Assembly (NCBI GenBank): GCA_016845305.1
Contig: JAERSW010000088.1
Span: 1-62,298 of the forward strand
Reading direction: 5' to 3'
Origin: Acidimicrobiales bacterium
GTDB lineage: Bacteria > Actinomycetota > Acidimicrobiia > Acidimicrobiales > MedAcidi-G1
DNA: 62,298 bases
Both the position numbers and the translations under genes were made by a program. Each line of letters starts with the position of its first letter. The stretch's first letter is position 1. Below are positions 2,099 through 20,786 of the stretch, piece by piece. The notes under the pieces were generated by a model. The model made no database searches and had not been told where the DNA came from. It saw only the letters and a list, made by a program, of their open reading frames with translations.

Positions 2099-3091
2099 TC
2101 AGAGGGATGCGAGGAAGTCCAGGAGCAGGTCGTTGGTCGCCTCGGCCGCCTCGGCCTGGATCCAGTGGCCGATCCCCGGCAGGACGACCGAGGCGTGCAG
2201 GCCGGGCAGGGTCCGGTCGAAGGCGGCGATGGCGTCTGCCATCCAGATGGTGGGCCCGTCCTTCTCGCCACCGATGAACAGCGACGGCTGGCGGATCGGT
2301 GCGCCGTGGAAGGCCCGGAGGTCGACCCAGTCGAGGTCGACGCACCGGTACCGGTTGAGTCCGCCGGTGAACCCGGCGCGGGCGAACTCGGCGACGTAGA
2401 AGGCCTGGTCCTCGGCGGTCCGCCAGGCCGGCATCTCGTCGGGGGTCTGGAACCGGTCGTCCAGCCGACCGCCCTCGACGACTACGAAGCCCGACGGCTG
2501 GTCGGGGCCCGGGGGCGGGGCGTCGCCCGACGCCGACCACGCCATGTCCCGGAGCCACCGGTCGGGGTCGTCGGCGATCTCCGCCTCGGCCACCCCCGGT
2601 TCCTGGAAGTAGTCGATGTAGAAGGTGTGCTCGCCGCCCATCATCCGGAACACCTCGGTGGGACGGGGGCTCGACCGGGGGCTGTACGGGACGCTCAGGA
2701 GGGCCATGGCGGTGAAGACGTCGGGACGCAGCAGCGCCGCGGTGCTGGCGATCGGCGAGCCCCAGTCGTGGCCCACGATCGCCGCCGTGTCGGCACCGAG
2801 GGCCTCGACGACGCCGACGCAGTCGCCGGCCAGGTCGACGAGCCGATAGGCGTCGATCGCCTCGGGGGCGTCCGACGACCCGTAGCCGCGGACGTCGATC
2901 GCCACCGCCCGGTAGCCGGCCGCGGCCAGCGCCGGGAGCTGGTGGCGCCACGAGTACCACGACTCGGGGAACCCGTGGACCATGAGGACGAGGGGCCCGC
3001 TTCCCATCTCGGCCACGTGGATGCGGGTCCCGCGGGCGTCCACGTCGTGGCGCACCAGCCCCGCGGCCGTCAGGTCGTCGATGGTCGTCAC
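2099..3091 (-). CDS. Epoxide hydrolase-like alpha/beta hydrolase
   Basis: This 330-residue alpha/beta hydrolase has the epoxide hydrolase oxyanion motif HGFPESW near residue 40. The nucleophile is Asp109 in GHDWGS rather than Ser, which separates epoxide hydrolases and haloalkane dehalogenases from esterases. The C-terminal catalytic His is in GIGHW, and a tyrosine-containing NRYR stretch sits in the lid. It probably opens an epoxide to a diol in the cytosol. The start is GTG 3091, overlapping the end of the vapC-like gene by 4 nt, so the two are probably co-transcribed. The substrate cannot be told from sequence. Confidence 0.85.
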   Translation of the reverse strand: MTTIDDLTAAGLVRHDVDARGTRIHVAEMGSGPLVLMVHGFPESWYSWRHQLPALAAAGYRAVAIDVRGYGSSDAPEAIDAYRLVDLAGDCVGVVEALGADTAAIVGHDWGSPIASTAALLRPDVFTAMALLSVPYSPRSSPRPTEVFRMMGGEHTFYIDYFQEPGVAEAEIADDPDRWLRDMAWSASGDAPPPGPDQPSGFVVVEGGRLDDRFQTPDEMPAWRTAEDQAFYVAEFARAGFTGGLNRYRCVDLDWVDLRAFHGAPIRQPSLFIGGEKDGPTIWMADAIAAFDRTLPGLHASVVLPGIGHWIQAEAAEATNDLLLDFLASL

Positions 3092-3543
3092 GGGGACCCT
3101 TCCTCGTCAGCCGGCTCCTCGGCGGGCTCCGCCGCCGGATCCTCGATCCGGATGCCGCGCACCACCGTGCCATGGGCCAGCGCCTCGGTGGCCATCCGGT
3201 CGCAGCCCCCGACGACCGCGGCCTCCACGGCGAGGGCGTCACGCAGTGCGAGGCCCGCCTCATCGGCGGTGTCGGCGGCGGCCAGCACCAGCGAGGCCTC
3301 CGCGGGCACCACCGTCAACTCTGCCAGCTCGGCCAGGGCCCGCCGGGCCACCACGGCCGACAGGGGCCGGGCCATCCGGCCGGTGACCGCCTCGGCGAAC
3401 TCGGCCAGCACCGGACCCGACACCACCAGCGCCGGGCCGTCCACGTGGCCGACCAGTGCCCGGGCCGCCGCCTGCCGGACGGGCTCGTCGTCGTCGAACA
3501 GGCGGACGAGGACCGAGGCGTCGACGAAGGTCCGCCCGGCCAT
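3088..3543 (-). CDS. vapC: PIN-domain ribonuclease toxin (VapC-like)
   Basis: A 151-residue PIN-domain protein. It opens with FVDASVLVRLF, carrying the first metal-binding Asp, then has a central LAEFAEAV Glu and a late RDALAVEAA Asp, the usual order of acidic residues in VapC RNases. The C-terminal 20 or so residues are an acidic Pro/Glu tail not needed for the fold. The start codon overlaps the upstream antitoxin stop by 1 nt (TGATG), typical of VapBC translational coupling. The target RNA is unknown; VapC toxins usually cut tRNA or rRNA. Confidence 0.8.
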   Translation of the reverse strand: MAGRTFVDASVLVRLFDDDEPVRQAAARALVGHVDGPALVVSGPVLAEFAEAVTGRMARPLSAVVARRALAELAELTVVPAEASLVLAAADTADEAGLALRDALAVEAAVVGGCDRMATEALAHGTVVRGIRIEDPAAEPAEEPADEEGSP

Positions 3544-3776
3544 CAGGTCGCGCCGCCAGGGGCCGGTCCCCCGCTGACGGACCGGCCGCCCGATCCGGCG
3601 GCCGACGAGACGGAGAGGGCGACCAGACGACGCCGCGCCGCCCCCACCCGGTCGGCGACCGAGTAGGCGGCCAGGAGCTCGCGGACCACGGCGTTGACCG
3701 AGGTGCCCTCCTCGGCGGCCCGGACCCGGGCGCGCCGGAGCAGGTCGTCGTCGACCGCCAGCGTCAGGTTCGCCAT
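3543..3776 (-). CDS. vapB: VapB-like ribbon-helix-helix antitoxin
   Basis: A 77-residue protein whose N-terminus (MANLTLAVDDDLLRRARVRA) is a classic ribbon-helix-helix strand and helix, followed by a Gly/Ser-rich flexible tail that would bind and neutralise the PIN toxin. I use ATG 3776 rather than the longer upstream frame, because it begins exactly at the RHH strand and has a CAGACT box 6 nt upstream. A perfect 6+3+6 inverted repeat at 3816-3830 is a natural autoregulatory operator. Confidence 0.75.
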   Translation of the reverse strand: MANLTLAVDDDLLRRARVRAAEEGTSVNAVVRELLAAYSVADRVGAARRRLVALSVSSAAGSGGRSVSGGPAPGGAT

Positions 3777-3866: not shown

Positions 3867-4991
3867 TCAGCCGACCCGCCCGTGGATCCAGTCGCGGTCC
3901 AGGTAGCAGCCATGCAGGAACCGGCCGGGGTCGGCCTCGCCGTCGCGCCCGTGCAGTACCCGCTCGTTGTCGAACACCATGCACTCGCCCGGCGCCAGGG
4001 TGAACCGGTGCTCCAGCTCCGGCCGGTGCAGCAGGCGTGCGAAGGTGCGGAACGCCTCGTAGAGGCCGGCCATCTCGTCGAACGGCACGTCGAACGGCGC
4101 CGCCGACCGGTTGTTGTACCGGACCGCCCGGATCGCCCCGGCCCGGGGACCACCGTCCTCCACCTCGATGAGCGGCCCCCGGTTCCGCAGGTCGAACCCG
4201 TCCCCCGACCAGCGGAACGGCACGCTCGTGGTGGCCAGCAGGTCGAACGCCGCCGGGTCCTCGTCGCGCAGCACCTCGGCGGCCCGGAAGCCGTCGAGCA
4301 GCACCGTCACCCCGCCGACGTCGCTGGCCACCAGGCAGTGCAGCAGCTGGTAGCCGGGCACCGGCCGTCGATACGGGTTGTCGGTGTGGACGTTGAGCGC
4401 CTTCGGCGTGAACGCCAGGTTGGTCGGGTTCGCCTCGGCCCGCACGAGGAAGACCTCGCCGTAGTTGGTGGCCCGGACCGGTCCCCACAGCCCGGCCACG
4501 TCCACGATCCCCGGGGCGTCCGCCGGGGGATCCTCGCCCACGGCCAGGCCGTGCACGATGGCCACCCCGTCGCGCACCAGCGCCGCGGTCGTGGCCGCCA
4601 GCGACTCCCGGTCGTCCCGGTCGGCCCACGCCAGCCGGTGCAGGTCGAGGTCCGCGGCCAGCCACGGGACCGCTCCGGCGGGGCCATCGCCAGCGCGGGA
4701 GCCGACACCGGCGGCCACGTCGTAGCGATGGGCCTCCAGCCACCCGGCGTCGAAGGCGCTCGTCGCCCCGTCCGGCCCGAACGCCACGACCAGGCGACCG
4801 TCCACCACCTCGGCCGACGCCACCACCACCTCGTCGGCCAGCTCGGTCACGTCGAACAGCCGTTGGTCGTTACCGGCGTGACGGGACGCGTCGTCCCGGG
4901 CGTTGTCGCGCAGCCACAGGGCGTGGAACCGGGCCGGACCGTCGGCCAGCTCCACCGTCACCACCTCCGGCGAGACGTCGACCAGCCTCAC
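3867..4991 (-). CDS. tmpA: TmpA/gamma-butyrobetaine hydroxylase-like Fe(II)/2-oxoglutarate dioxygenase
   Basis: This 374-residue protein has the two-part layout of the gamma-butyrobetaine hydroxylase family. An N-terminal DUF971-like domain carries WLRDNARDD but lacks the zinc-binding cysteines of true BBOX. The C-terminal TauD fold has Fe ligands His202-x-Asp204 and His347. The GTG start at 4991 overlaps the stop of the HD gene by 4 nt. That partner is a PhnZ/TmpB-type oxygenase, and the pair matches the TmpA-TmpB pathway, in which TmpA hydroxylates 2-(trimethylammonio)ethylphosphonate at C1. A different phosphonate substrate is possible. The long open frame continuing upstream is an antisense artefact. 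Confidence 0.75.
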   Translation of the reverse strand: MRLVDVSPEVVTVELADGPARFHALWLRDNARDDASRHAGNDQRLFDVTELADEVVVASAEVVDGRLVVAFGPDGATSAFDAGWLEAHRYDVAAGVGSRAGDGPAGAVPWLAADLDLHRLAWADRDDRESLAATTAALVRDGVAIVHGLAVGEDPPADAPGIVDVAGLWGPVRATNYGEVFLVRAEANPTNLAFTPKALNVHTDNPYRRPVPGYQLLHCLVASDVGGVTVLLDGFRAAEVLRDEDPAAFDLLATTSVPFRWSGDGFDLRNRGPLIEVEDGGPRAGAIRAVRYNNRSAAPFDVPFDEMAGLYEAFRTFARLLHRPELEHRFTLAPGECMVFDNERVLHGRDGEADPGRFLHGCYLDRDWIHGRVG

Positions 4992-5578
4992 CGACGCAAC
5001 CCCGGGTCGACCAGCAGCGGACGCCAGTGGTCGACCGGCGGGACCTCCAGACCGCCCGCGGCATCGCCGGCCAGCTTCCCCCCGTCGTCCCAGCCCCGCA
5101 CGGCCAGCGCGGCGTCGGCGAACGGCTCGGCCTCGAACGCGGCGGCCTCGTCGGCCGACATGGCCCCGCCCTGGAGGCGCAGCGTCCCGATCGACGCCGG
5201 GCTGAGCTCGGCCTCGTAGCCGGGGTCCACGAAGCACCGGTACCGCTTGGCGGCCACGTGGAGGCGCACCGGCTCGCTCACGTCGTCGGCGAAGCGCTCC
5301 GCCACCCAGGCCCCGCCGGAGGTGCCGTGGTCGGTCACCCCGAACTCGGAGTCGGCCTCGGCGAGGAAGTGGCCGACGTCGTGCAGCAGGGCGGCCAGCA
5401 CCAGGGCGTCGTCCGCCCCCTCGGCACGGGCCAGCGCCGCGGCCTGGCGGGCGTGCTGCTCCATCGTCACCCGCTCGGAGTACGTGGCGTGGCCGTGTGC
5501 GGCGAACAGGGCCAGCACCTCGTCGACGACCCGGTCGGCCCCCGTCTCCACGCCCGTCTCCGCCCCCTTTTCCGGCAC
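4988..5578 (-). CDS. tmpB: PhnZ/TmpB-like HD-domain mixed-valent diiron oxygenase
   Basis: A 196-residue HD protein. Candidate iron ligands are His42, His66-Asp67, His84, His107 and Asp164, closely matching the spacing recalled for PhnZ (34, 58/59, 80, 104, 161). Tyr33 and Glu35 precede the first His much as the PhnZ substrate-recognition pair does. The block VRLHVAAKRY and the later LQGGAMS are typical of phosphonate-operon HD proteins. It should cleave the C-P bond of the 1-hydroxyphosphonate made by the neighbouring dioxygenase, giving phosphate and, if the substrate is TMAEP, glycine betaine. GTG 5578 is chosen because CAGGAT lies 6 nt upstream; the frame stays open further up. Confidence 0.75.
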   Translation of the reverse strand: MPEKGAETGVETGADRVVDEVLALFAAHGHATYSERVTMEQHARQAAALARAEGADDALVLAALLHDVGHFLAEADSEFGVTDHGTSGGAWVAERFADDVSEPVRLHVAAKRYRCFVDPGYEAELSPASIGTLRLQGGAMSADEAAAFEAEPFADAALAVRGWDDGGKLAGDAAGGLEVPPVDHWRPLLVDPGLRR

Positions 5579-5584
5579 GGGCGC

Positions 5585-5590
5585 ATCCTG
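5585..5590 (-). promoter_or_regulatory. -10-like box CAGGAT, leaderless promoter of tmpBA
   Basis: CAGGAT, 6 nt, then GTG 5578. It would drive the two-gene phosphonate cassette as a leaderless mRNA. Confidence 0.4.
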
Positions 5591-5617
5591 CCCGCTGGGG
5601 ACCCCGGCCACCAGCGC

Positions 5618-5626
5618 ACCTAGGTT
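5618..5626 (+). promoter_or_regulatory. Candidate -10 TAGGTT of the acyl-CoA dehydrogenase inside palindrome ACCTAGGT
   Basis: TAGGTT (5621-5626) lies 37 nt before ATG 5664, so this transcript would have a short leader carrying an ACGGAGA ribosome-binding site. The overlapping perfect 8-bp palindrome ACCTAGGT could serve either divergent transcript. Confidence 0.35.
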
Positions 5627-5663
5627 CCCAGCCGACACCCCGACGACCCCGACGGAGAACCCC

Positions 5664-6986
5664 ATGGCAGTCGGCCCCGGCCTCCACATCGACGATCCCT
5701 CCGATCCGTCCCTCGACCTGCGCATGTCCGATGGCGCCCGACCCCTCTACGAGCAGGTCAAGGCGTTCATCGCCACCGAGGTCGAGCCAGTCACCGTCGA
5801 GTTCCACCGCCTCGGCGCCGAGCGCACCGACCACTGGGGCCACCACCCGGGCCAGCTCGACATCCTGGAGGGCCTCAAGGCCAGGGCCCGCGAGGCCGGC
5901 CTGTGGAACTTCTTCCTCCCCGACGCCGAGACCGGCGAGGGGCTGTCCAACCTCGACTACGCCTACATCGCCGCCGAGCTGGGCAGGAACCCGCTGGCGT
6001 CGGAGTCCATGAACTGCTCGGCGCCCGACACCGGCAACATGGAGGTCATCGAGCGGGTCGGGACCCCCGAGCAGAAGAAGCAGTGGCTGGAGCCGCTGCT
6101 GAACGGCGAGATCCGCTCCGCCTACGCCATGACCGAGCCCGACCTGGCCTCGTCGGACGCCAAGAACATCGCCTGCCGGGCGGTCCTGGACGGCGACGAG
6201 TGGGTCATCAACGGCACCAAGTACTACATCTCCGGCGCCGGCGACCCCCGCTGCAAGGTGATGATCACCATGGTGCAGACCAGCCCCGACGGGCCGCCGC
6301 ACCGCCGGCAGTCGCAGATCCTCGTCCCCATCGACACGCCCGGGGTCACCATCGACCACCCGATGCAGGTCTTCGGCGACGACGACGCCCCCCATGGGCA
6401 CATGCACATCACGTTCAAGGACGCCCGGGTGCCGGCGTCGAACATGCTGCTCGGCGAGGGCCGCGGCTTCGAGATCTCGCAGCTGCGGCTCGGCCCGGGC
6501 CGCATCCACCACTGCATGCGCTCCATCGGCGCCGCCGAACGGGCCATCGAGCTGATGTCCCGTCGCGGCCTGCACCGCGAGGCGTTCGGGAAGACCATCG
6601 CCCACCTCGGCAAGAACATGGAGGTCATCTCGCGGGCCCGCATCGAGATCGAGGCCATGCGCCTGATGGTCCTGCGGGCCGCCAAGGCCATGGACACCAT
6701 GGGCAACGCCGAGGCCCGGGTGTGGATCAGCGCCGTGAAGGCCATGGTCCCCGAGAAGGTCTGCCACATCATCGACGCCGCCATCCAGATGCACGGCGCC
6801 ACCGGCGTGTCCCAGTGGACGCCGCTGTCGCGCATGTACACCCAGCAGCGCACCCTGCGCCTGGCCGACGGCCCCGACGAGGTGCACCACTTCGTGGTGT
6901 CGCGCTTCGAGCTGAACCGCTACCAGGACGGGCCCGGTCCCGTCCCGATGCTGGACCACACCGGCCCGGTGTTCTCGGGCCCGTGA
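5664..6986 (+). CDS. Acyl-CoA dehydrogenase (ACAD10/11-like)
   Basis: A 440-residue acyl-CoA dehydrogenase. The middle domain carries the FAD/substrate signature around YAMTEPDLASSDAKNI, and the C-terminal helical domain ends with the IQMHGATGVSQ and RLADGPDEVH segments common to ACAD10/ACAD11-type enzymes. It should oxidise an acyl-CoA to the 2-enoyl-CoA and pass electrons to ETF. ATG 5664 has an ACGGAG-type ribosome-binding site, and the protein begins naturally there. The stop overlaps the GTG of the downstream sulfatase by 4 nt (GTGA), so the two form an operon. Chain length is not predictable. Confidence 0.9.
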   Translation: MAVGPGLHIDDPSDPSLDLRMSDGARPLYEQVKAFIATEVEPVTVEFHRLGAERTDHWGHHPGQLDILEGLKARAREAGLWNFFLPDAETGEGLSNLDYAYIAAELGRNPLASESMNCSAPDTGNMEVIERVGTPEQKKQWLEPLLNGEIRSAYAMTEPDLASSDAKNIACRAVLDGDEWVINGTKYYISGAGDPRCKVMITMVQTSPDGPPHRRQSQILVPIDTPGVTIDHPMQVFGDDDAPHGHMHITFKDARVPASNMLLGEGRGFEISQLRLGPGRIHHCMRSIGAAERAIELMSRRGLHREAFGKTIAHLGKNMEVISRARIEIEAMRLMVLRAAKAMDTMGNAEARVWISAVKAMVPEKVCHIIDAAIQMHGATGVSQWTPLSRMYTQQRTLRLADGPDEVHHFVVSRFELNRYQDGPGPVPMLDHTGPVFSGP

Positions 6987-8914
6987 GCGACGACCCACGC
7001 GCCCACAAGCCCGCCACGGCCCACACCCGGGCCGACCTCGAGGCGTTCGCCGCCCGGATGCCGGCCGACGACGGCACCGACGCCGCCGACGTGGCCCGTG
7101 GCTTCATCGCCACGCGCGTCGAGCCGGTGATCGAGAAGATCACCCCCAACGCCTGGCTGCCCGTCAGCTGGGACCTGTCGAAGTCGGACTTCGTCCACGG
7201 GCCGTGCCCCGACACCGTCAACCCGTCGCTGTGGCGCCAGGCCGGGTTCAACGCCCAGCACGGCCTCTACGAGGTGATCGACGGCTTCTACCAGGTGCGC
7301 GGCTTCGACACCTCGACGGTCACGTTCATCCGCGGCGACGAGGGCTGGGTGGTCATCGATCCGCTCACCACCACCGAGACGGCCCGGGCCGCCTTCGAGC
7401 TGGTCACCGAGCACCTCGGCGAGCGGCCCGTCACCGCGGTGATCTACACCCACTCCCACGTCGACCACTTCGGCGGGATCCTCGGCGTGCTCGACCCGGC
7501 CCGCGTCGAATCCGGCGAGGTGCCGGTCGTGGCCCCCGAGGGCTTCCTGCGCGAGGCGGTCGCCGAGAACCTGCTGGCCGGGCCGGCCATGGGTCGGCGG
7601 GCCATGTACCAGTACGGCCTGATGATCGACTGGGGCGAGCACGGCCACGTCGACCAGGGTCTCGGCAAGGGCGTGCCCACCGGTGCCTCCGCGCTGGTGC
7701 CGCCCACCATCGAGATCACCGAGACCGGCCAGGAGCTGGTGCTGGACGGCGTCCGCATCGAGTTCCAGCTCACCCCGGAGTCCGAGGCGCCGGCCGAGAT
7801 GCACTTCTACTTCCCGGACCATCGGGCCCTGTGCATGGCCGAGAACTGCACGGCCACCATGCACAACGTGCTGACCCTGCGGGGGGCGCTGGTGCGCGAC
7901 ACCCTGATGTGGAGCCGCTACATCGACGAGGCGCTCGACCGGTGGGGCGACGTGTCCGACGTCGTGTTCGCCAGCCACGGCTGGCCGCACTGGGGCGCCG
8001 AGGCGGTCCACGGCTACCTGACCCGCCAGCGCGACCTCTACCGGTGGCTGCACGACCAGTCGATGCGCCTCATCAACCTCGGGTACACGCCGAACGAGAT
8101 CTCGGCCTGCATCGACCTGCCGCCCGGCCTGTGGGACGACTACCACTGCCACGGCTACTACGGGACGGTCAGCCACAACGTCCGGGCCGTGTACCAGCGG
8201 TACCTCGGCTTCTACGACGGGCACCCGTCCAGCCTCGACCCCTACGAGCCGGTGGAGGCCGGCCGGCGCTACGTCGACTTCATGGGCGGCATGGACGCGC
8301 TGTTGGCGAAGGCCCGCGAGTCGTACGAGGCCGGCGACCACAAGTGGGTGGCCGAGGTGCTGCGCCACGCCGTGTTCGCCGATCCCGACTGCGAGGAGGC
8401 GCGCCTGCTGCAGGCCGACGCCTTCGAGCAGCTGGCCTACCGGGCCGAGGCGGGGCCGTGGCGCGACGTCTACCTGTCGGGCGCCCAGGAGCTGCGGCAC
8501 GGGTCGATCACCGTCCACTCGGTGAGCCGGCCCCGACCCGAGCTGGTGACCGGCATGGACCTCCAACAGGCCTTCGACCTGCTGGCCGCCGCGATGGACG
8601 GGGTGGCCGCCGCAGCGCTCGGCCCGCTGGCCATCGACTGGCACGTGGGCGACCCGTCCGCTGGCGGCGACACGGTTCGCCTTGAGCTGTCCAACGGGAC
8701 GCTGCACTCGACGCCCGGCGCGTCGCACGCCGAACCGGACGTGGTGGTCCGCGGCGAACGCAGTGCGCTGGACCGGATGACGGCCGACGGCGCCACGGTC
8801 GCCGACCTGCTTGACGAGGGGGCGCTCACCGCCACCGGCGACGTGGACCGGCTGACGGCGCTGTTCGCCTGCGTGACCGAGTTCCCCCGCTTCTACAACA
8901 TCATCGAGCCGTAG
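6983..8914 (+). CDS. Alkylsulfatase-like metallo-beta-lactamase hydrolase (SdsA1/BDS1 family)
   Basis: A 643-residue protein of the length and layout of SDS hydrolases. It has a long N-terminal MBL domain, an alkylsulfatase dimerisation domain around 390-530, and a C-terminal SCP2-like lipid-binding domain. The zinc motif is Thr156-His157-Ser-His159-Val-Asp161-His162, near-identical to the THSHxDHFGG of SdsA1, with later Glu and His ligands in AENCTATMHN. It would hydrolyse alkyl sulfate esters to alcohol and sulfate. No signal peptide is visible, so it is probably cytosolic. Coupling to the acyl-CoA dehydrogenase suggests that the released alcohol feeds fatty-acid oxidation. Confidence 0.85.
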   Translation: MSDDPRAHKPATAHTRADLEAFAARMPADDGTDAADVARGFIATRVEPVIEKITPNAWLPVSWDLSKSDFVHGPCPDTVNPSLWRQAGFNAQHGLYEVIDGFYQVRGFDTSTVTFIRGDEGWVVIDPLTTTETARAAFELVTEHLGERPVTAVIYTHSHVDHFGGILGVLDPARVESGEVPVVAPEGFLREAVAENLLAGPAMGRRAMYQYGLMIDWGEHGHVDQGLGKGVPTGASALVPPTIEITETGQELVLDGVRIEFQLTPESEAPAEMHFYFPDHRALCMAENCTATMHNVLTLRGALVRDTLMWSRYIDEALDRWGDVSDVVFASHGWPHWGAEAVHGYLTRQRDLYRWLHDQSMRLINLGYTPNEISACIDLPPGLWDDYHCHGYYGTVSHNVRAVYQRYLGFYDGHPSSLDPYEPVEAGRRYVDFMGGMDALLAKARESYEAGDHKWVAEVLRHAVFADPDCEEARLLQADAFEQLAYRAEAGPWRDVYLSGAQELRHGSITVHSVSRPRPELVTGMDLQQAFDLLAAAMDGVAAAALGPLAIDWHVGDPSAGGDTVRLELSNGTLHSTPGASHAEPDVVVRGERSALDRMTADGATVADLLDEGALTATGDVDRLTALFACVTEFPRFYNIIEP

Positions 8915-10239: not shown

Positions 10240-11115
10240 ATGCGCCTCGACGTCGAGTCCCTCCGGGCCTTCCGCGCCGTGGTCGACGAGCAGGGCTTCA
10301 CCCCGGCGGCCGCCCGCCTCGGCCTGACCCAGAGCGCCGTCTCGTGGAAGATCAAGCGCCTCGAGGAGCGCGTCGACCGCCCGCTGCTGCTGCGCGACGG
10401 CAGCCGCCTCGAACCCACCCCCGACGGCCACGACCTGCTGGCCCACGCCGAGCGGATCCTCGCCGCCCACGACGCCGCCGTCGACGGCCTCCGCCGCTCG
10501 GAGCTGACCGGCGTCGTCCGGCTCGGCTGCAACGAGGAGGTGGCCGCCACCGCGCTGGCCGACGTCGTCGCCCGCTTCGGCCGCACCCACCCCGACGTCC
10601 GCGTCGCCATCCGGGTCGAGCAGAGCTTCGACGTGGCCGACTGGCTGGACGACGGCAGCATCGACCTGGCCGTCGTCCAGACCGTCGAGGACCCCGCCAC
10701 CCGGCCCGCCGACGACCTCCTGCTGTGGACCGACGAGCAGGCCTGGGTCCACGCCGACCACCTGCGTCCCGGCCCCGACGACGACGTCCCCCTCATCAGC
10801 TTCGGCGACCGCTGCATCTACCTGCCCACCGCCCGCCGCCTGCTGGCCGACCTCGGGGTCACCACCCACGTCGCCCTCGAGTGCCCCAGCATCGTCGGCG
10901 TCCAGGCCGCGGTGGCCGCCGGGCTCGGCGTGGCCGTCCTCAACGGTCGCAACGTCGTCGACGGCATGCGGCGCTGGGCGTGGGCCCAGGCCGAGGCGCC
11001 CCTCCCCCCGGTCGACTACGTGATCCGACGCCGCCCCGGCGCCGACGACGAACCCACCGACGCACTCCGGGCCGAACTGCACCGGGCCCTCAGCACGAAC
11101 GGAGCCCCCACATGA
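10240..11115 (+). CDS. LysR-family transcriptional regulator of the MttB operon
   Basis: A 291-residue LysR-type regulator. The N-terminal winged helix-turn-helix runs from MRLDVESLRAF through GLTQSAVSWKIKRLEERV, and a type-2 periplasmic-binding-fold effector domain follows from about residue 90. I choose ATG 10240 over 10198 and 10216 because it places the helix-turn-helix at the usual distance from the start and follows a -10 box by 6 nt, while 10216 lies inside the operator palindrome. Its stop overlaps the mttB-like ATG (ATGA), so the regulator leads its own catabolic operon. The effector is probably a betaine or its product (inference). Confidence 0.9.
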   Translation: MRLDVESLRAFRAVVDEQGFTPAAARLGLTQSAVSWKIKRLEERVDRPLLLRDGSRLEPTPDGHDLLAHAERILAAHDAAVDGLRRSELTGVVRLGCNEEVAATALADVVARFGRTHPDVRVAIRVEQSFDVADWLDDGSIDLAVVQTVEDPATRPADDLLLWTDEQAWVHADHLRPGPDDDVPLISFGDRCIYLPTARRLLADLGVTTHVALECPSIVGVQAAVAAGLGVAVLNGRNVVDGMRRWAWAQAEAPLPPVDYVIRRRPGADDEPTDALRAELHRALSTNGAPT

Positions 11116-12704
11116 CCGACACCGCCGCACCCGCCGCCGGCACCTCCACCGGTCCCGCCGCCAGCCCGGCCGCCGAACCCGAGCTGGGCAAGGGGCGACG
11201 GGGCCGCGACGCCCGGGCCGCCAACCGACGCCGCCGCGTCCAGACCTGGCTGCCCGAGTTGGAGCGCGGCATCCCGTGGGTCGACCTGCTCACCCCCGAG
11301 CAGGTCCAGACCGTCCACGACGCCTCCATGGACGTCATCGAGGAGGTCGGCGTCGAGTTCCGCTGCGACGACGCCATCGCCATGTGGAAGCAGGCCGGCG
11401 CCGCCGTCGACGGCGTGCGGGTCCGCATCGACCGCGAGCTGCTCATGTCGCTCGTCGGCACCGCCCCGTCGTCGTACACCATGGTGGCCCGCGACCCCGC
11501 CCACACCGTCACCGTCGGCGACGGGAAGACGATCTTCACCCCGTCCTACGGCGCCCCGTACGTCCTCGGCCTCGACGGGGTCCGTCGTCCGGCCACCCGG
11601 GAGGACTTCCGGAACTTCACCCGCCTCAACCACCTGTCGCCCGCTCTGCACATGTCCGGCGGCGTGGTCTGCGAGCCCATGGACGTGCCCGTCCCCAAGC
11701 GGCACCTCCACATGATGGACGCCCTCCTCAGCCTGTCGTCCAAGCCGTTCATGGGCGCGGTGACGTCGATGGAGCGGGCCGAGGACAGCCTGCACATGGC
11801 CGGCATCGTGTTCGGCCAGGAGTTCGTGCGCGAGACCACCGTCATGACCTGCCTGGCCAACGGCAACACCCCGCTGGTGTGGGACAAGACGATGCTGGAC
11901 AGCGTCCGGGTATTCGCCGGCGCCAACCAGGCCACCCTGTTCAGCCCGTTCGTGCTCGGTGGGGCGTCCACCCCGGCGTCGACGCTCGGCGCCGTCATCC
12001 AGGTCAACATCGAGGCCCTCACTGGCGTGGCCTTCTCGCAGCTGGTCCGGGCCGGCGCCCCCGCCCTCTACGGCCAGTGGCTGTCGACCGTGTCGATGAA
12101 GACCGGCGCCCCGCAGGCCGGCACGCCGGAGATCTGCCACATGAACCTGCTGACCGCGCAGATGGCCCGCCACTACCAGCTGCCGTCGCGCTGCAGCGGC
12201 TCGTGCACCAGCTCCAAGATGGTCGACGCCCAGGCCGGCTACGAGGCGGGCCGCAACATGTACGGCGTGCTGATGTCCGGCACCAACTTCGTGCTGTCCA
12301 CCACCGGCTACCTCGAGAGCGCCATGTGCCAGAGCTACGCCAAGTGGGTCCTCGACAGCGAGCAGCTGGAGATGATGTACCGCCTCGGCAGCGGCGTCTC
12401 GTTCGACGACCTCGACGAGGTGCTGGACACCATGCGCGAGGTGCCGCCCGGCGGCCACCACCTGGGCACCGCCCACACCCTGGCCAACTTCCAGACCGCC
12501 TTCTCGATGCCCGAGATGATGAACAGCGACAACTACGAGCAGTGGCTGGCCGACGGTTCGCTGAGCGCCGAGGACCGGGCCACCGCCCGGTGCCGCGAGA
12601 TGCTCGACGAGTACGTCGAGCCGACCCTGCCCGACGACGTCCGCGCCGAGCTCGACAACTTCATCGCCCGCCGCGAGGCCGAACTACCCGACATGGTTTC
12701 TTGA
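11112..12704 (+). CDS. MttB-family (non-pyrrolysine) quaternary amine methyltransferase
   Basis: A 530-residue protein of the trimethylamine methyltransferase MttB superfamily, with the family blocks FTPSYGAPYVL, GNTPLVWDKTM and the Cys-rich CSGSCTSSKMVDAQAGYE. The frame has no in-frame amber codon, so it is a pyrrolysine-free member like MtgB (glycine betaine) or MtpB (proline betaine). Those enzymes transfer one methyl from the quaternary amine to a cob(I)amide protein. No corrinoid protein or reductive activase gene is in the window. The first 60 residues are a low-complexity Ala/Thr/Pro then Arg-rich extension. Coupled to LysR and followed by DapA, ALDH and DAO genes, it probably starts betaine breakdown. 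Confidence 0.85.
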   Translation: MTDTAAPAAGTSTGPAASPAAEPELGKGRRGRDARAANRRRRVQTWLPELERGIPWVDLLTPEQVQTVHDASMDVIEEVGVEFRCDDAIAMWKQAGAAVDGVRVRIDRELLMSLVGTAPSSYTMVARDPAHTVTVGDGKTIFTPSYGAPYVLGLDGVRRPATREDFRNFTRLNHLSPALHMSGGVVCEPMDVPVPKRHLHMMDALLSLSSKPFMGAVTSMERAEDSLHMAGIVFGQEFVRETTVMTCLANGNTPLVWDKTMLDSVRVFAGANQATLFSPFVLGGASTPASTLGAVIQVNIEALTGVAFSQLVRAGAPALYGQWLSTVSMKTGAPQAGTPEICHMNLLTAQMARHYQLPSRCSGSCTSSKMVDAQAGYEAGRNMYGVLMSGTNFVLSTTGYLESAMCQSYAKWVLDSEQLEMMYRLGSGVSFDDLDEVLDTMREVPPGGHHLGTAHTLANFQTAFSMPEMMNSDNYEQWLADGSLSAEDRATARCREMLDEYVEPTLPDDVRAELDNFIARREAELPDMVS

Positions 12705-12715
12705 CACGCCGTGTC
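12703..12715. repeat. Inverted repeat GACACG-C-CGTGTC at the mttB-like stop
   Basis: A perfect 6+1+6 inverted repeat begins within the stop codon of the methyltransferase gene. The surrounding CTTGACACGCCGTGT recurs with one mismatch at 20690-20704 before the TRAP binding-protein gene. It could be a hairpin at a gene boundary or a protein site. Confidence 0.35.
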
Positions 12716-12759
12716 CTGACCCGCTTCGTCCCCACCCGCATCCCCGAGAGGACCCACGC

Positions 12760-13791
12760 ATGAGCACCAGCAACGGATCCACCCCCGAGCGGCCCCTGCT
12801 CCACGGCGTCTGCGCCGCCATGAGCACCCCGTTCGACGACAGCGGCGAGTCGCTCGACGAGGGGCGCCTGCGCGACCACGTCGAGTCGCTCGTCGACGCC
12901 GGCGTCCACGGCCTCGTGCTGGCCGCCGGCACCGGCGAGTTCGCCTTCCTCTCCGAGGACGAGAAGGCCCGCATCTTCCGCATCGGCATCGACCAGGTGG
13001 CCGGGCGGATCCCCGTCATCTGCCAGACGTCGGCCATCACCACCGTCGACGCCATCGAGAACTCCCGGGCCGCCGCCGACCTGGGGGCCAGCGCCGTGAT
13101 GGTCCTGCCCCCGTACTTCGAAGGGCCGTTCGAGCGGGGCGTGCTGTACCACTACGAGAAGCTGGCCCGGGCCCTCGACGTGCCCATCGTGCTCTACAAC
13201 ATCCCGGTCAACAGCGGCTTCGACATCACCCCGGACGTGTACCGCCGGCTCATCGCCATGGAGAACGTCGACTACATCAAGGACTCCACCGGCGACCTGG
13301 TCCGCCTCCAGCAGCTCGTCGGCATCGGCGGCAACGTGCTGGCGGGCGCCGACCCGCTGGCCCCCTACGCCCTCATGGCCGGCGCCGCCGGCTGGATCTG
13401 GGGCGCGGCGAACGTCATGCCGCACGAGTGCGTGGCCCTGTGGGACCACGTCACGTCGGGTCGCCTCGCCGAGGCGCTCGAGCTGTGGCGCCGCATGCTG
13501 CCGTCCAACCTCTACTTCTGGGACAACCCGCACGGCGCCGAGTACAACTCGGCCGTCAAGACGGCCACCACGATGGTCGGCCGCGCCGTCGGCCCGTGCC
13601 GCCGCCCGGTGCTGCCCATGACCCGCCAGGGCCGCGTCGCCCTGCAGGCCGCCCTGTCCACCCTGCCCACCAACCGGGTCGACCGCGACCGCCTCGTCTT
13701 CCGCGAATGGGACGACGAGCGGGACTGGCTGGTCCGCATGACCGATCGGGCCGGCGTCGGCCGGCCCCACTCCCAGGAGGCCACCCGATGA
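12760..13791 (+). CDS. DapA/NAL-superfamily aldolase-lyase (candidate pyrroline-4-hydroxy-2-carboxylate deaminase)
   Basis: A 343-residue Class I aldolase-fold enzyme of the dihydrodipicolinate synthase/N-acetylneuraminate lyase group. The Schiff-base lysine is Lys174 in YIKDSTGD, the catalytic tyrosine is Tyr146 in LYNIP, and the carboxylate-binding segment is GTGEF. The protein is about 40 residues longer than DapA at the C-terminus. The following gene is an ALDH and then a DAO oxidase, so the enzyme is more likely the hydroxyproline-pathway deaminase giving 2-oxoglutarate semialdehyde than a lysine-biosynthesis DapA. A dehydratase of ketodeoxyglucarate type remains possible. It overlaps the ALDH gene by ATGA. 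Confidence 0.8.
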   Translation: MSTSNGSTPERPLLHGVCAAMSTPFDDSGESLDEGRLRDHVESLVDAGVHGLVLAAGTGEFAFLSEDEKARIFRIGIDQVAGRIPVICQTSAITTVDAIENSRAAADLGASAVMVLPPYFEGPFERGVLYHYEKLARALDVPIVLYNIPVNSGFDITPDVYRRLIAMENVDYIKDSTGDLVRLQQLVGIGGNVLAGADPLAPYALMAGAAGWIWGAANVMPHECVALWDHVTSGRLAEALELWRRMLPSNLYFWDNPHGAEYNSAVKTATTMVGRAVGPCRRPVLPMTRQGRVALQAALSTLPTNRVDRDRLVFREWDDERDWLVRMTDRAGVGRPHSQEATR

Positions 13792-15284
13792 CCCTCGACC
13801 TCGCCGACCCGGCGGCCCTCGCCGCTTCCATCCAGCCGCCCACCCGGGCCGTCATCGGCGGTCGCAGCGTCGACTCGGCCTCCGGCGCCACGTTCGCCAC
13901 CCTCAACCCGGCCACCGGCGCCGAGCTGGCCCAGGTGACCGAGTGCGACGCCGAGGACGTCGACCGGGCCGTCGCCGCGGCCCGCGCCGCCTTCGCCGAC
14001 GGCCCGTGGGGTCGGATGGCACCCGCCGAGCGCAAGCGCCTCATCCTGCGCTTCGCCTCCCTCGTCGAGGCCCACACCGACGAGCTGGCCGTCATCGAGA
14101 CCCTCGAGGCGGGCAAGCCGATCAGCGACTGCGCCGACATCGACGTCCCCGACCTGGTGGCCACGCTGCGCTGGCACGCCGAGGCGGCCGACAAGCTGTA
14201 CGACCAGCTGTCCCCGTCGGGTCCCGGGACGGTCGGCATGGTGGTCCGCGAGCCGATCGGCGTGGTCGGCGCCGTGCTGCCGTGGAACTACCCGCTGATG
14301 ATGGCGGGCTGGAAGCTGGGCCCGATCCTGGCCGCCGGCAACACCTGCGTGGTCAAGCCCGCCGAGCAGACCTCGATGTCGACCATCCGCATCGCCGAGT
14401 TGGCCGTCGAGGCCGGCATCCCCGACGGCGTGTTCAACGTGGTGCCCGGCTTCGGCCCCACCGCCGGCGCCGCGATCGGCCTGCACGGCGACGTGGACTG
14501 CGTGGCCTTCACCGGCTCGACCGAGGTGGGACGCAACTTCCTGCGCTACTCGGCCGACTCCAACCTCAAGGAGGTCCTGCTGGAGTGCGGCGGCAAGAGC
14601 CCCGTCATCGTCATGGCCGACGCCGACGACCTGGACGCCGCCGCGGCCGGGATCTGCGAGGGCATCTTCTGGAACGGCGGGCAGAACTGCAGCGCCAACT
14701 CGCGCCTGCTGGTCCAGCGGTCGGTCGAGGACGAGCTCATGGAGCGGGTCGCCGAACGCAGCCGCGACTGGGTGGTCGGCGACCCCCTGGTGGCCGAGAC
14801 GACCATGGGCGCCATGATCGAGGAGCAGCACCTCGACAAGGTCCTCGGCCACATCGCCGATGCCCACGAGGCCGGCTCGACGTGCGCCATCGGCGGCAAC
14901 CGGGTCCGCGAGGAGTCGGGCGGCTGGTTCGTGGAGCCCACCGTGTTCACCGGCGTCGACCCGTCCAGCCGCCTGGCCCGCGAGGAGGTCTTCGGACCGG
15001 TCCTGGCCGTGACCGCCTTCGACACCCCGGAGGAGGCCATCCGCCTCGCCAACGACACCGAGTACGGCCTGGCCGGGACGATCCACACCACCGACCTGCG
15101 CACCGCCCACCTGGCCACGCGGGCCATGCGGGCCGGCACGGTGGCCGTGAACTGCTACGGCGAGGGCGACATCACCACCCCGTTCGGTGGCTTCAAGCAG
15201 TCGGGCTTCGGGGGGCGCGACAAGTCGATCGCCGCCCACGAGCAGTACACCGAGCTCAAGACCATCTGGATGGACCTGTCGTGA
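13788..15284 (+). CDS. Aldehyde dehydrogenase (candidate 2-oxoglutarate semialdehyde dehydrogenase)
   Basis: A 498-residue NAD(P)+-dependent aldehyde dehydrogenase. Visible landmarks are LPWNYPLMM (cofactor and oxyanion region), FTGSTEVG, the general base Glu266 in LECGGKS and the nucleophile Cys301 in GQNCSANS; the C-terminal PFGGFKQSGFG is also intact. By sequence feel it resembles the PuuC/BetB group. Because it is translationally coupled to a DapA-family lyase, 2-oxoglutarate semialdehyde is a good candidate substrate, with betaine or aminobutyraldehyde as alternatives. ATG 13788 overlaps the lyase stop; the frame is open upstream but antisense-like. Confidence 0.9.
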   Translation: MTLDLADPAALAASIQPPTRAVIGGRSVDSASGATFATLNPATGAELAQVTECDAEDVDRAVAAARAAFADGPWGRMAPAERKRLILRFASLVEAHTDELAVIETLEAGKPISDCADIDVPDLVATLRWHAEAADKLYDQLSPSGPGTVGMVVREPIGVVGAVLPWNYPLMMAGWKLGPILAAGNTCVVKPAEQTSMSTIRIAELAVEAGIPDGVFNVVPGFGPTAGAAIGLHGDVDCVAFTGSTEVGRNFLRYSADSNLKEVLLECGGKSPVIVMADADDLDAAAAGICEGIFWNGGQNCSANSRLLVQRSVEDELMERVAERSRDWVVGDPLVAETTMGAMIEEQHLDKVLGHIADAHEAGSTCAIGGNRVREESGGWFVEPTVFTGVDPSSRLAREEVFGPVLAVTAFDTPEEAIRLANDTEYGLAGTIHTTDLRTAHLATRAMRAGTVAVNCYGEGDITTPFGGFKQSGFGGRDKSIAAHEQYTELKTIWMDLS

Positions 15285-15327
15285 CCGTCCGGGACGGCGG
15301 CCTCCCGCCTGCGGCCGCCTGAGGCCG

Positions 15328-16647
15328 ATGGGCGCCGTCACGCTCCTGCCCGCGGCCCGCCGCGACAACGGCTGGTTCGAGACCCTCCCCGAGGTCCCGC
15401 CCGCCGCTCCTCTGGTGGGCGCCGTCGACGCCGACGTGGTCGTGGTGGGCGCCGGGTTCACCGGGCTGGCCGCGGCGCGGCGCCTCGGCGAGCTCCGCCC
15501 CGACGCCCGGATCCTCCTGCTCGAGGCGGGCCGGATCGGCAACGGCGCCGCCGGGCGGTCGTCGGGCTTCGGCATCGACCACGCCCACAACGTCCGCTCC
15601 GAGGGCTTCGCCGATGCCGCCGAGTACGAGAAGCAGCAGATCGCCCTGAACCGGGCCGGGCTGGCCTACCTCGAGGAGGCCGTCACCACCCACGGCATCG
15701 ACTGCGACTGGTCGTGGGCCGGCAAGGTGCACGCCGCCTGCACGCCGCGCGGCGCCGCCGACCTCGAGCACTTCACCGCCTCGCTGGACCGCATCGACGA
15801 GCCCTACGAGGTGCTCGACGCCGACGCCATGGCCGACCGCCTCGGCATCGACCACTACACGCACGGGGTGCACACCCCGGGCACGGCGCTCATGCAGCCC
15901 GCCGCGCTGTGCCGAGGCCTCGCCGCCGCCATGCCCGCCAACGTCGTCGTCCACGAGGAGACCCCGGTGACGTGGATGGACGCCGGGAGGCCGCACGAGC
16001 TGTGGACCGACGGCGGCAACGTCCGCACGCCCGAGGTGCTGTTGGCCAACAACGGCTACCTGGCCGGCTTCGGGTACTACCGCCACCACCTGATCCCCGT
16101 CGTCACGTGGGGGTCGATGACCCGCCCGCTGACCGACGACGAGATGGCCGCCATCGGCGGGCCGCGCACGTGGGGCGTGATCCCGGCCGCCCCGTCGGGC
16201 ACCACGGTGCGGCGCCTGGCCGACGGTCGGATCCTCGTGCGCAACGTCTACTCGTACAGCCGGCACTCGCTGGCCGACGGCCGTCGCCGGCAACGGGCCG
16301 GCCGGTCCCACCGTCGGGCGTTCGAGGCCCGCTTCCCGATGCTGGCGCACGTGCCGTTCGAGTACACGTGGGGCGGGCCACTGAGCATGGCCCGCAACGG
16401 CGAGCCGGTGTTCGGGCGCCTCGACGACGGCGTCCACGCCGCCGGCGTCCACAACGGCACCGGCCTGAGCCGCGGCATCGTCTGCGGGAAGCTGGTCGCC
16501 GAGATGATGTGCGGGCAGGGCTCGGACCTGCTCGACGCCATGGTGGCCCGAGGCCGCCCCAACCGGAACGTCCCCGACCCGATCCTGGGCTGGGGCGTCG
16601 ACCTGTACGCCCAGCGCCTGCGGCTCCGGTCCGGGCGCGAGATGTGA
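15328..16647 (+). CDS. FAD-dependent amine/D-amino acid oxidoreductase (DAO family)
   Basis: A 439-residue DAO-fold flavoprotein. The FAD dinucleotide motif VVVGAGFTGLAAARRL begins about residue 36 and is followed by LLLEAG and a GRSSGF stretch. It resembles gamma-glutamylputrescine oxidase and D-hydroxyproline dehydrogenase-type enzymes. It would oxidise a secondary or primary amine to an imine; in the proposed pathway that is D-hydroxyproline or an N-methylated derivative to the pyrroline carboxylate used by the DapA-family enzyme. ATG 15328 follows GAGGCCG 43 bp after the ALDH stop. The substrate is inferred from context only. Confidence 0.8.
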   Translation: MGAVTLLPAARRDNGWFETLPEVPPAAPLVGAVDADVVVVGAGFTGLAAARRLGELRPDARILLLEAGRIGNGAAGRSSGFGIDHAHNVRSEGFADAAEYEKQQIALNRAGLAYLEEAVTTHGIDCDWSWAGKVHAACTPRGAADLEHFTASLDRIDEPYEVLDADAMADRLGIDHYTHGVHTPGTALMQPAALCRGLAAAMPANVVVHEETPVTWMDAGRPHELWTDGGNVRTPEVLLANNGYLAGFGYYRHHLIPVVTWGSMTRPLTDDEMAAIGGPRTWGVIPAAPSGTTVRRLADGRILVRNVYSYSRHSLADGRRRQRAGRSHRRAFEARFPMLAHVPFEYTWGGPLSMARNGEPVFGRLDDGVHAAGVHNGTGLSRGIVCGKLVAEMMCGQGSDLLDAMVARGRPNRNVPDPILGWGVDLYAQRLRLRSGREM

Positions 16648-16678
16648 GCGCGGCCCGGCCGCGACGGAAAGGCTGAGG

Positions 16679-17437
16679 ATGGACGAGCAGCCCACGAAGG
16701 TGGCCCTGGTGACCGGGGCGACGTCGGGCATCGGACGGGCGTGCGCCCTGCGCCTGGCCGCCGACGGGTACGCCGTGGTGGTGGGCGGCCGTGACGAGGC
16801 CCGGGCCGCCGCGGTGGTCGACGAGATCACGGCCGCGGGTGGCACGGCGTCGACGGCGCTGGGCGACGTGGCCGATCCCGCCTACGGCGACGCGGCGGTG
16901 GCCGCCGCGGTGGCCGACCACGGGCGACTCGACGTGCTGGTCAACGCGGCCGGCGTCATCACCCGGGCCGATGCCGAGGGCACCACCGACGACGAGTGGC
17001 ACCGTGTCATGTCGACCAACGTCGACGGCGTGTTCCGCACCAGCCGGGCCGCGGTGCCCGCCATGCGGGCCGTCGGTGGCGGCGCCATCGTCAACGTCAG
17101 CTCGACCTGCGGCCTGGTCGGCACGACCGGCCTCGTGGCCTACTGCACGTCGAAGGCGGCGGTGTCGAACATGACGCGGGCCATGGCACTCGACCACGCC
17201 GCCGAGGGGATCCGGATCAACGCGGTCTGCCCGGGCGCGGTCGACACCGACATGCTGTACTCGGAACGCGACGACTCGCCCGAGGAGGTGCGTGCCATGA
17301 ACCTGCCTGACATCCCGGAGGGTCGCGTGCCGTCCGGCGGGGAGATCGCCCACGCCGTGGCCTTCCTGGCCGACGAGCGGTCCCGGCACCTCAACGGCGT
17401 CAACCTCAGCGTCGACGGCGGGTACACGGCCCGATGA
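16679..17437 (+). CDS. Short-chain dehydrogenase/reductase
   Basis: A 252-residue classical SDR. The NAD(P)-binding motif TGATSGIG starts at residue 12, NAAG follows, and the catalytic Ser-Tyr-Lys are in VNVSS and YCTSK. The C-terminus GGYTAR is typical of the FabG-like group. It interconverts an alcohol and a ketone with NAD(P)H. The ribosome-binding site GGCTGAGG lies just upstream of ATG. It is the sixth gene of the LysR-led operon and overlaps the next SDR by ATGA, so the two reductases are made together. Confidence 0.85.
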   Translation: MDEQPTKVALVTGATSGIGRACALRLAADGYAVVVGGRDEARAAAVVDEITAAGGTASTALGDVADPAYGDAAVAAAVADHGRLDVLVNAAGVITRADAEGTTDDEWHRVMSTNVDGVFRTSRAAVPAMRAVGGGAIVNVSSTCGLVGTTGLVAYCTSKAAVSNMTRAMALDHAAEGIRINAVCPGAVDTDMLYSERDDSPEEVRAMNLPDIPEGRVPSGGEIAHAVAFLADERSRHLNGVNLSVDGGYTAR

Positions 17438-18246
17438 CCGCCTCCCCGGACGCCGCCACCTCGGGCCGGGCCGACGGGCGGATCGTCGTCGTCACCGGCG
17501 GGGCCCGGGGTATCGGCCGGGCCATCGTGGACCGGTTCGCCGCTGAGGGCGCCACGGTCGTCATCGGCGACCTGACCGATCCCGGCAACGTGGGCGCCGG
17601 CCTCGACGTGGCCGGGCACCGCGAGTGGGTGCCGCTGGACGTCACCGACGAGGCCTCGGTCCTCGAGTTCGCCGAGACGGTGCAGGCCGGACACGGCGGC
17701 GTGGACGTGCTCGTCAACAACGCCGGGATCATGGACACCCGCTCGATCCGGGACGAGACGGTGGCCGACTGGGACCTGGCCATGGCCGTGAACCTGCGGG
17801 GCCCGTTCCTGATGGCCAAGCACCTGCTGCCGCTGATGGAGGGCCGTGACGACCCGGCCATCGTGAACATCGGCTCCATCGAGGGCCTCGGCGCCAACGC
17901 CCTGCACGCCTCGTACGCGGCGTCCAAGGCCGGCGTGCACGGCCTGACCCGGGCGCTGGCCGTCGACCTCGGTCCGATGGGGGTCCGCTGCAACGCGGTG
18001 GCGCCCGGCTGGATCGACACCGACCTGAACCGGGGCTACGTCGACAAGCACCCCAACCGTGACCAGGCGGTCGCCGAGCTGGCGTCGCTGCACCCGGTGG
18101 GCCGCATCGGCGATCCGGCCGACGTGGCCGGCACCGTGCTGTGGCTGGCCACCCCGGATGCCGGGTTCGTGACCGGCCAGGTGGTCACCGTGGACGGTGG
18201 CCGCATGACCCGCCTGTCACTCCCCGCCTCCCTCGCCGACGACTGA
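17434..18246 (+). CDS. Short-chain dehydrogenase/reductase
   Basis: A 270-residue SDR with TGGARGIG cofactor motif, NNAG at about residue 95, the serine in IVNIGS and active-site YAASK. An acidic GDLTD after beta-2 suggests NAD+ preference, so it may act in the oxidative direction. It is coupled by ATGA to the preceding SDR and is the last gene before a new promoter for the TRAP genes. Two different SDRs side by side suggest two alcohol/ketone steps or an epimerisation through a ketone, which I cannot resolve from sequence. Confidence 0.85.
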   Translation: MTASPDAATSGRADGRIVVVTGGARGIGRAIVDRFAAEGATVVIGDLTDPGNVGAGLDVAGHREWVPLDVTDEASVLEFAETVQAGHGGVDVLVNNAGIMDTRSIRDETVADWDLAMAVNLRGPFLMAKHLLPLMEGRDDPAIVNIGSIEGLGANALHASYAASKAGVHGLTRALAVDLGPMGVRCNAVAPGWIDTDLNRGYVDKHPNRDQAVAELASLHPVGRIGDPADVAGTVLWLATPDAGFVTGQVVTVDGGRMTRLSLPASLADD

Positions 18247-18285
18247 GCCGCCGCGGCTCGTTTCAGGCGGACCACCGCCGCTGAC

Positions 18286-18291
18286 TACCCT
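18286..18291 (+). promoter_or_regulatory. -10 box TACCCT, leaderless promoter of the TRAP genes
   Basis: TACCCT, 6 nt, then ATG 18298. It gives the transporter genes a transcript separate from the LysR-led operon. Confidence 0.5.
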
Positions 18292-18297
18292 CTCGGG

Positions 18298-19065: not shown

Positions 19066-19083
19066 GGGCGGAGGACCTCGACC

Positions 19084-20652: not shown

Positions 20653-20701
20653 GGCGGGTGCCCCGGGGCCCCTCCCGGACTCGGCCACCCTTGACACCCC
20701 G

Positions 20702-20717
20702 TGTGACGCGGGTCACG
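20702..20717. promoter_or_regulatory. CRP-like site before dctP
   Basis: TGTGA-CGCGGG-TCACG fits the CRP/FNR-family pattern TGTGA-N6-TCACA with one mismatch, 70 bp before the dctP ATG. A TTGACA lies just upstream at 20691, but no convincing -10 follows it. Assignment is tentative. Confidence 0.35.
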
Positions 20718-20786
20718 CTGGTGGTGCACGTCGGTCGGTCCGACGTGCGTGACACCGCCGTCACCCACAGAGGGGGGGAATTCCCA

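Follow-up and report, generated by a model that had tools for sequence, protein, structure and literature searches.

A TmpA/TmpB-type gene pair with a predicted role in phosphonate oxidation in Acidimicrobiales

An overlapping gene pair

The DNA analyzed here (the window) is 62,298 nt of contig JAERSW010000088.1, from an Acidimicrobiales genome (GCA_016845305.1; 2.92 Mb, rated 98% complete) whose closest named relatives are metagenome genomes of Acidimicrobiales/Acidimicrobiia. Two genes on its minus strand concern us: first a gene for a TmpB/PhnZ-type HD-domain diiron oxygenase (4988..5590), then one for a TmpA-type Fe(II)/2-oxoglutarate dioxygenase of the TauD family (3867..4991; 374 residues, GTG start). 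Both open reading frames (ORFs) are real, and together they have the architecture of the TmpA-TmpB route for phosphonate oxidation: the clade and residues of the dioxygenase, the ligands and predicted fold of the HD protein and the conserved pairing of the two genes support this assignment, which a first-pass annotation of the window had suggested.

The start of the HD gene is uncertain: a start at 5590 gives 200 residues and the GTG at 5578 gives 196; residues are numbered here from the latter, numbers from 5590 being four higher. The HD stop and the dioxygenase start share a 4-nt overlap, GTGA (4988..4991, minus strand), which is kept as GTGA or ATGA in 8 of the 10 Acidimicrobiia relatives, while L073 has a different frame relation. 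The two genes had been described as translationally coupled, and the overlap would probably serve to coordinate production of the two enzymes.

Conservation of the pairing

Loci were scanned with an alignment of the dioxygenase alone and two peptide patterns, and the best 80 among the matches listed were kept. As 79 of these 80 carry an HD match within 150 nt although only the dioxygenase served as query, the pairing is far above chance. Two of the 79 are difficult to interpret (L120 stops within the HD gene, and the frames of L073 are odd), and on the 3.4-kb contig L123 the only HD match is weak and lies on the other side. The HD gene comes first in all 10 Acidimicrobiia relatives, and the dioxygenase gene comes first in 69/69 proteobacterial pairs, as it does in three genomes of the same family that fall outside the 80 loci. 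A Candidatus Microthrix metagenome genome has an ortholog of the window pair in which HD protein and TmpA-type dioxygenase are fused in a single 549-residue open frame (L078:7446-9095); this is one metagenome contig, so that an assembly error is possible, although several bases set its junction apart from the others.

In a class-level sample of 296 genomes, the HD query matched 80 at E 1e-10 and the dioxygenase query 15 at E 1e-40, the source genome being included in each count. At these thresholds both genes are adjacent or in one frame in eight genomes: the source genome, its three family members, and four that carry the fusions described below. Three other HD loci of the class that were checked (L058, L066, L068) pair the HD domain with a PhyH-type dioxygenase, as a neighbor or in a fusion. 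PhnY* is a PhyH-type dioxygenase, and these neighbors look like a PhnY*/PhnZ pair. In one of them (L066:5379-11797), genes for a PF01663 phosphodiesterase and an OpuAC glycine-betaine-type ABC transporter come after the gene for a PhyH-HD fusion protein. TmpA-HD pairs in Actinomycetota extend beyond the lineage of the window, since a linear plasmid of Embleya (L188:8001-9616) encodes a TmpA that scores 404 bits, over the model cut-off, with an adjacent HD gene.

The dioxygenase groups with TmpA

The best match of the dioxygenase in the PDB is Leisingera TmpA (6npb; E 1.6e-78, 267.6 bits), with BBOX at 118.8 bits, and in the alignment it is 43.8% identical to TmpA and 28.4% to human BBOX. By fold, too, TmpA (6npb) is the best match of its predicted model. 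Its Pfam label is TauD (PF02668). The BBOX model TIGR02409 gives 272.9 bits, short of its cut-off of 414.75.

Phylogenetic analysis used a 57-row tree, its rows drawn from 31 of the 80 loci, from relatives in the class and from three reference chains; several of its outgroup branches are long. The dioxygenase falls in a 36-row clade with the characterized TmpA (support 96/97), outside the BBOX, trimethyllysine dioxygenase (TMLD)-type and DfmD rows. In approximately unbiased (AU) tests, trees that held the Acidimicrobiia dioxygenases with human BBOX (p=0.019) or with three BBOX-type paralogs (p=0.016) were rejected. A wider set of BBOX and four BBOX-like paralogs was rejected at p=0.0006, a test that could fail merely if those five rows are not one group. 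A single clade of the Acidimicrobiia dioxygenases and those of the three same-family genomes was not rejected (p=0.207).

The residues point the same way. TmpA contacts the phosphonate through N187, N287 and R288 (PMC9296572), and N191, N294 and R295 of the window protein align with them. At the position of R288, BBOX and the TMLD-type protein L045 have Ala, DfmD has Pro and the BBOX-type protein L040 has Trp. The motif NNRS at the N287/R288 site is found in 79/79 relatives examined from the best 80 loci, and also in L073, which was dropped from the count for its frame problem; this site lies in neither search pattern, and the first Asn (the N187 site) lies within one of them. The four positions Y177, F181, F194 and Y363 are aromatic and are candidates for a trimethylammonium cage, on the basis of the residues that we take to form that cage in BBOX. 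The zinc cysteines of BBOX are absent, as the first-pass annotation had stated: the protein has three cysteines only (219, 337, 362), none at the N-terminal zinc positions.

A BBOX/TmpA-like paralog in the source genome (L002:1435-2682, contig C56) has N-terminal cysteines and reads HID where TmpA has HTD, and no HD match was found in its 4-kb locus. A third dioxygenase match (contig C41) was discarded as chance; it lies inside a frame recognized by eye as RNA polymerase beta-prime.

The HD protein is TmpB-like

The best match of the HD protein in the PDB is TmpB (6npa; E 3.8e-28, 101.8 bits), with PhnZ at 1.5e-20; up to E 1 the matches comprise TmpB, three PhnZ sequences (~77 bits) and one chance match at E 0.05. 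The predicted model has a pLDDT of 91. The six ligands of the diiron pattern of TmpB (H...HD...H...H...D) are all present, as H42, H66, D67, H84, H107 and D164, the very residues that had been named from the sequence, provided that counting begins at 5578. The 30 aligned rows (the window and 29 relatives) show no variation at Y33, E35, H42, H66, D67, H84, H107 and K111 and almost none at D164. Ligands and modeled fold thus mark the protein as a predicted oxygenase-type HD protein, which is better called TmpB-like than TmpB.

A reading of the HD protein as a phosphohydrolase, its adjacency to the dioxygenase incidental, could appeal to the generic Pfam HD match (23.4 bits, cut-off 22), but it is scarcely credible given the six-ligand diiron motif, the conserved overlap and fusions with the dioxygenase, and the fold comparison, in which all 10 matches at E <=0.001 are TmpB or PhnZ.

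Phosphodiesterase-HD-dioxygenase fusions

Four class genomes (L070:3459-5768, L064, L063 and L043) encode the HD protein and the dioxygenase in one frame together with an N-terminal phosphodiesterase-like domain, for which PF01663 is shown in L070. A sample of the order showed the same arrangement, an alkaline-phosphatase-superfamily phosphodiesterase, an HD domain and a TmpA-like dioxygenase in one uninterrupted ORF of ~770 residues, in 14 of 397 genomes (loci L167 and L169-L182 cover the order-level fusions). Among the 14, G530 is without the first 76 residues of the query and the frame of G008 reaches the end of its contig; beyond them, the matched region of G494 is interrupted by a TAG and that of G271 is split over two contigs. 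The order-level fusions span four family codes, and in a phylum-level sample (396 genomes) two of these fusions were matched, besides a partial match of the window itself.

An alignment of 15 fusions shows the HD ligands, YxE, HTDNPY, DHGG and an NxRS motif in all of them, the last as NNRS in 11, NHRS in three and NPRS in one. The distal dioxygenase His is likewise present in 15/15 (14 by pattern, L180 by eye), and the N-terminal Asp and Thr of the phosphatase domain in 14/15, L175 being without that end. The dioxygenase domain has N-terminal cysteines in 15/15, in which it differs from the window dioxygenase. The phosphatase domain is NPP-like and weakly like PhnA (33.0 of 407.55 bits). A tree in which the fusion dioxygenases join the TmpA clade was not rejected (p=0.193). 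Seven fusion neighborhoods were compared: L190 and L192 have three flanking genes in common, and beyond that just a few single similarities were seen.

Separate genes of the same kind are found elsewhere. An alkaline-phosphatase-family gene lies directly 3' of tmpB in 6 of 70 proteobacterial loci (L086, L090, L097, L118, L132 and L138; L134 has a partial match), and on a Labrenzia plasmid (L189:7986-10569) such a gene follows tmpA-tmpB and overlaps tmpB. It is possible that this is a third pathway gene. A search of the source genome, run without a positive control, gave no close match to such a partner, and none was seen in the fetched flanks of 10 close relatives.

The fusions support joint action of the HD and dioxygenase domain types. 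They also hint at hydrolysis of an ester as a possible third step, which if true would explain the source of the free phosphonate. We offer one extension tentatively, as a possibility and not as an expectation: that the TmpA/TmpB route has been rebuilt in Acidimicrobiales as an enzyme of ~770 residues, whose alkaline-phosphatase-superfamily phosphodiesterase would act on an ester, such as a phosphonocholine-type lipid head group, to liberate the phosphonate, and whose fused HD and TmpA-like domains would convert it to phosphate and glycine betaine. The window pair would then be the split form, with an HD protein of the local actinobacterial lineage. No description of a triple fusion was found in the open-licence literature searched, where the query on the fusion itself was narrow, and a tri-domain fusion would be new.

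Proposed function and alternatives

We put at roughly 0.75 the probability that the pair oxidatively releases phosphate from 2-(trimethylammonio)ethylphosphonate (TMAEP) or a close N-methylated analog. The dioxygenase would bind a quaternary-amine phosphonate, most likely TMAEP, with the phosphonate held by N191, N294 and R295 and the trimethylammonium group in the candidate aromatic cage; with Fe(II), 2-oxoglutarate and O2 it would hydroxylate the carbon adjoining phosphorus, with a stereochemistry that, like the substrate, we infer. The HD protein would then use O2 to cleave the C-P bond at a mixed-valent diiron site formed by its six ligands, with Y33 and E35 acting as a gate, and the products would be phosphate and glycine betaine.

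Several observations weigh against this proposal. The dioxygenase scores 349.1 bits on the NCBIfam TmpA model NF049936, its best model, below the equivalog cut-off of 400, and its orthologs L071 (355.3) and L076 (354.8 bits) are likewise below. Its AlphaFold model (pLDDT 85) has its best fold match in 6npb, on which the whole chain superposes with a TM of 0.65 and an rmsd of 20 A; the superposition is poor with BBOX too. A tree holding the Acidimicrobiia dioxygenases with two TMLD-type rows was not formally rejected (p=0.122). For the HD protein the best model is TIGR03276, phosphonate degradation HD-domain oxygenase, with 185.3 bits against a cut-off of 214.6; the TmpB model NF049941 gives 137.4 against 300, and a hydroxymethylphosphonate-oxygenase model scores equally. 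The gating loop of TmpB is YxxE (PMC8177086), and the window protein has YxE (Y33-S-E35), keeping Tyr and Glu one residue closer together; four residues are also deleted before the third His ligand, a deletion common to the nine Acidimicrobiia relatives aligned (L073 is unalignable). A 64-row HD tree places the window and Acidimicrobiia HD proteins with other actinobacterial HD proteins, apart from proteobacterial TmpB, and no phosphonate transporter was seen adjoining the pair.

The model scores can be set beside those of relatives. L055, from a second lineage of the same family, reaches 420.6 bits on the TmpA model, over the cut-off, and Leisingera L084 reaches 600 bits and passes the BBOX model as well, which illustrates the risk of mislabeling. 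The HD tree places the protein apart from Leisingera TmpB in its best topology; a single clade of TmpA-partnered HD proteins was not rejected (p=0.169, or p=0.249 with the fusions included). The tree hints at independent recruitment of the HD partner, which we do not claim because that single clade was not rejected.

An alternative that we regard as unlikely is that the same two-step chemistry acts on another aminophosphonate, such as 2-aminoethylphosphonate (AEP), its mono- or dimethyl form or some other, the short HD gate reflecting a different amine. The YxE gate and the four-residue deletion would fit this, as would the equal scores of the TmpB and hydroxymethylphosphonate-oxygenase models and the grouping with actinobacterial HD proteins, of which the three checked have a PhyH-type (PhnY*-like) partner. 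Against it, the dioxygenase, which would set the choice of substrate, keeps the TmpA phosphonate triad and the aromatic cage positions, and YxE also occurs in the proteobacterial locus L102, beside a dioxygenase that scores over the TmpA cut-off.

Far less probable is a betaine or carnitine locus, in which the dioxygenase would act on gamma-butyrobetaine or trimethyllysine, with an unrelated HD protein, beside a family III CoA-transferase and an acyl-CoA dehydrogenase. Genes for the latter two are indeed conserved neighbors, and the p value for the TMLD-type rows leaves some room for it; however, the clades with BBOX and BBOX-type rows were rejected, the zinc cysteines are absent and the R288 equivalent is present, and the HD gene is adjacent in 79 of the best 80 loci, so that a BBOX or carnitine identity is disfavored by tree tests, residues and pairing alike. 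The CoA-transferase scores 339 of 750 bits on the succinate--glutarate CoA-transferase model and 77 of 413 on that for L-carnitine CoA-transferase. As for TMLD, its model gives the dioxygenase 166.5 of 268.3 bits and the TMLD-type rows stand apart in the 57-row tree; tree and residues do not favor that grouping.

Comparison with known systems

C-P bond chemistry of this kind and both enzyme families are already known (PMC10574752, PMC8177086, PMC8316502, PMC11203657), and the window pair adds a divergent member to them. It shares with TmpA/TmpB of Leisingera caerulea (PDB 6npa-6npd) the two enzyme families, the adjacency of their genes, the TmpA phosphonate contacts and the diiron ligands. It differs in that the order is HD-dioxygenase in the window and dioxygenase-HD in Leisingera, the HD protein has the YxE gate and stands apart from TmpB in the best tree, and the dioxygenase is 44% identical.

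The PhnY*/PhnZ system (PhnZ PDB 4mlm, 4n71) also joins an HD diiron oxygenase to a 2-oxoglutarate dioxygenase, but the dioxygenase of the window is of the TauD/TmpA type (PF02668) and not of the PhyH type. PhnZ cleaves the alpha-hydroxyphosphonate that follows the 2-oxoglutarate dioxygenase step (PMC10574752). PhoF of Fonsecaea multimorphosa is a fungal PhnY-PhnZ fusion for AEP and 3-aminopropylphosphonate (PMC10574752); L078 and the triple fusions resemble it in having both oxygenase types on one polypeptide, whereas the TauD-type fusions described here are TmpA-like and, L078 excepted, carry a phosphodiesterase domain, and the window pair is unfused. BBOX shares with the window dioxygenase the overall family and, presumably, a trimethylammonium-type substrate; it differs in its zinc cysteines, in its clade and in having Ala where the window protein and TmpA have Arg.

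No report of TmpA/TmpB in Acidimicrobiia was found in the open-licence literature searched. The pair would bring an actinobacterial lineage within the range of TMAEP-type phosphonate oxidation and gives specific residues for it; some relatives of this lineage have genome records whose names sound marine (ALOHA, ETNP). Such genes are missed because they score under the NCBIfam cut-offs and receive only the generic Pfam labels TauD and HD, and the fused relatives add evidence of functional coupling.

Genomic neighborhood and physiology

A short intergenic region (5591..5663) separates the HD gene from a divergent acyl-CoA dehydrogenase gene (5664..6986, plus strand; PF00441, PF02770); the operon promoter is presumed to lie in it, and a scan of 5500-5760 showed no sigma-70-type consensus. 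The dehydrogenase gene is followed on the plus strand by one for an alkyl-sulfatase-type hydrolase of the metallo-beta-lactamase fold (6983..8914; PF14863, PF14864, PF00753). Each of these two genes was detected in 7 of the 10 relatives, with partial metallo-hydrolase genes in L072 and L077 in addition. Downstream of the pair, an alpha/beta hydrolase gene (2099..3091, minus strand; PF00561) was detected in 6/10; a DapA-like gene near the pair was found in 7/10 and the CoA-transferase in 4/10. All of these counts are lower bounds, since gene calling was poor for L073, L077 and L079 and some of the contigs stop short.

A gene for an MttB-family methyltransferase homolog (11112..12704, plus strand; PF06253, 617.6 bits) was detected in 8/10 relatives; it scores 278.2 bits on the pyrrolysine-type model TIGR02369, under the cut-off of 525. 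The first-pass annotation had linked betaine release to this methyltransferase. The synteny is consistent with such a link, but the genome holds seven MttB-family matches (one partial), and a role for the nearby MttB as consumer of the released glycine betaine is only suggestive.

Elsewhere in the genome, contig C27 carries a gene for a PF12974 phosphonate-binding protein (194 bits), followed by genes for an ABC ATPase and two permeases (these three named by eye), and there are five OpuAC matches. PhnJ had no match in the genome, the E. coli control being detected; this and the genes on C27 count in favor of the proposed function. No other strong phosphonate-type HD protein was found in the genome, the next best scoring 37.7 bits.

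The MttB homolog opens a catabolic-looking cluster (11112-21998) with genes for a DapA-like protein, an aldehyde dehydrogenase, an FAD oxidase, a TRAP transporter and two SDR-like proteins, the last two named by eye. The FAD oxidase is weakly like TIGR03329 (141.2 of 632.8 bits) and a LysR gene weakly like TIGR03339 (85.6 of 341.1 bits); neither match was used. Between the dioxygenase and the alpha/beta hydrolase lies a pair of small genes (3088-3776), PIN-domain-like and antitoxin-like by eye, which was detected only in some relatives (L071, L075 and L078).

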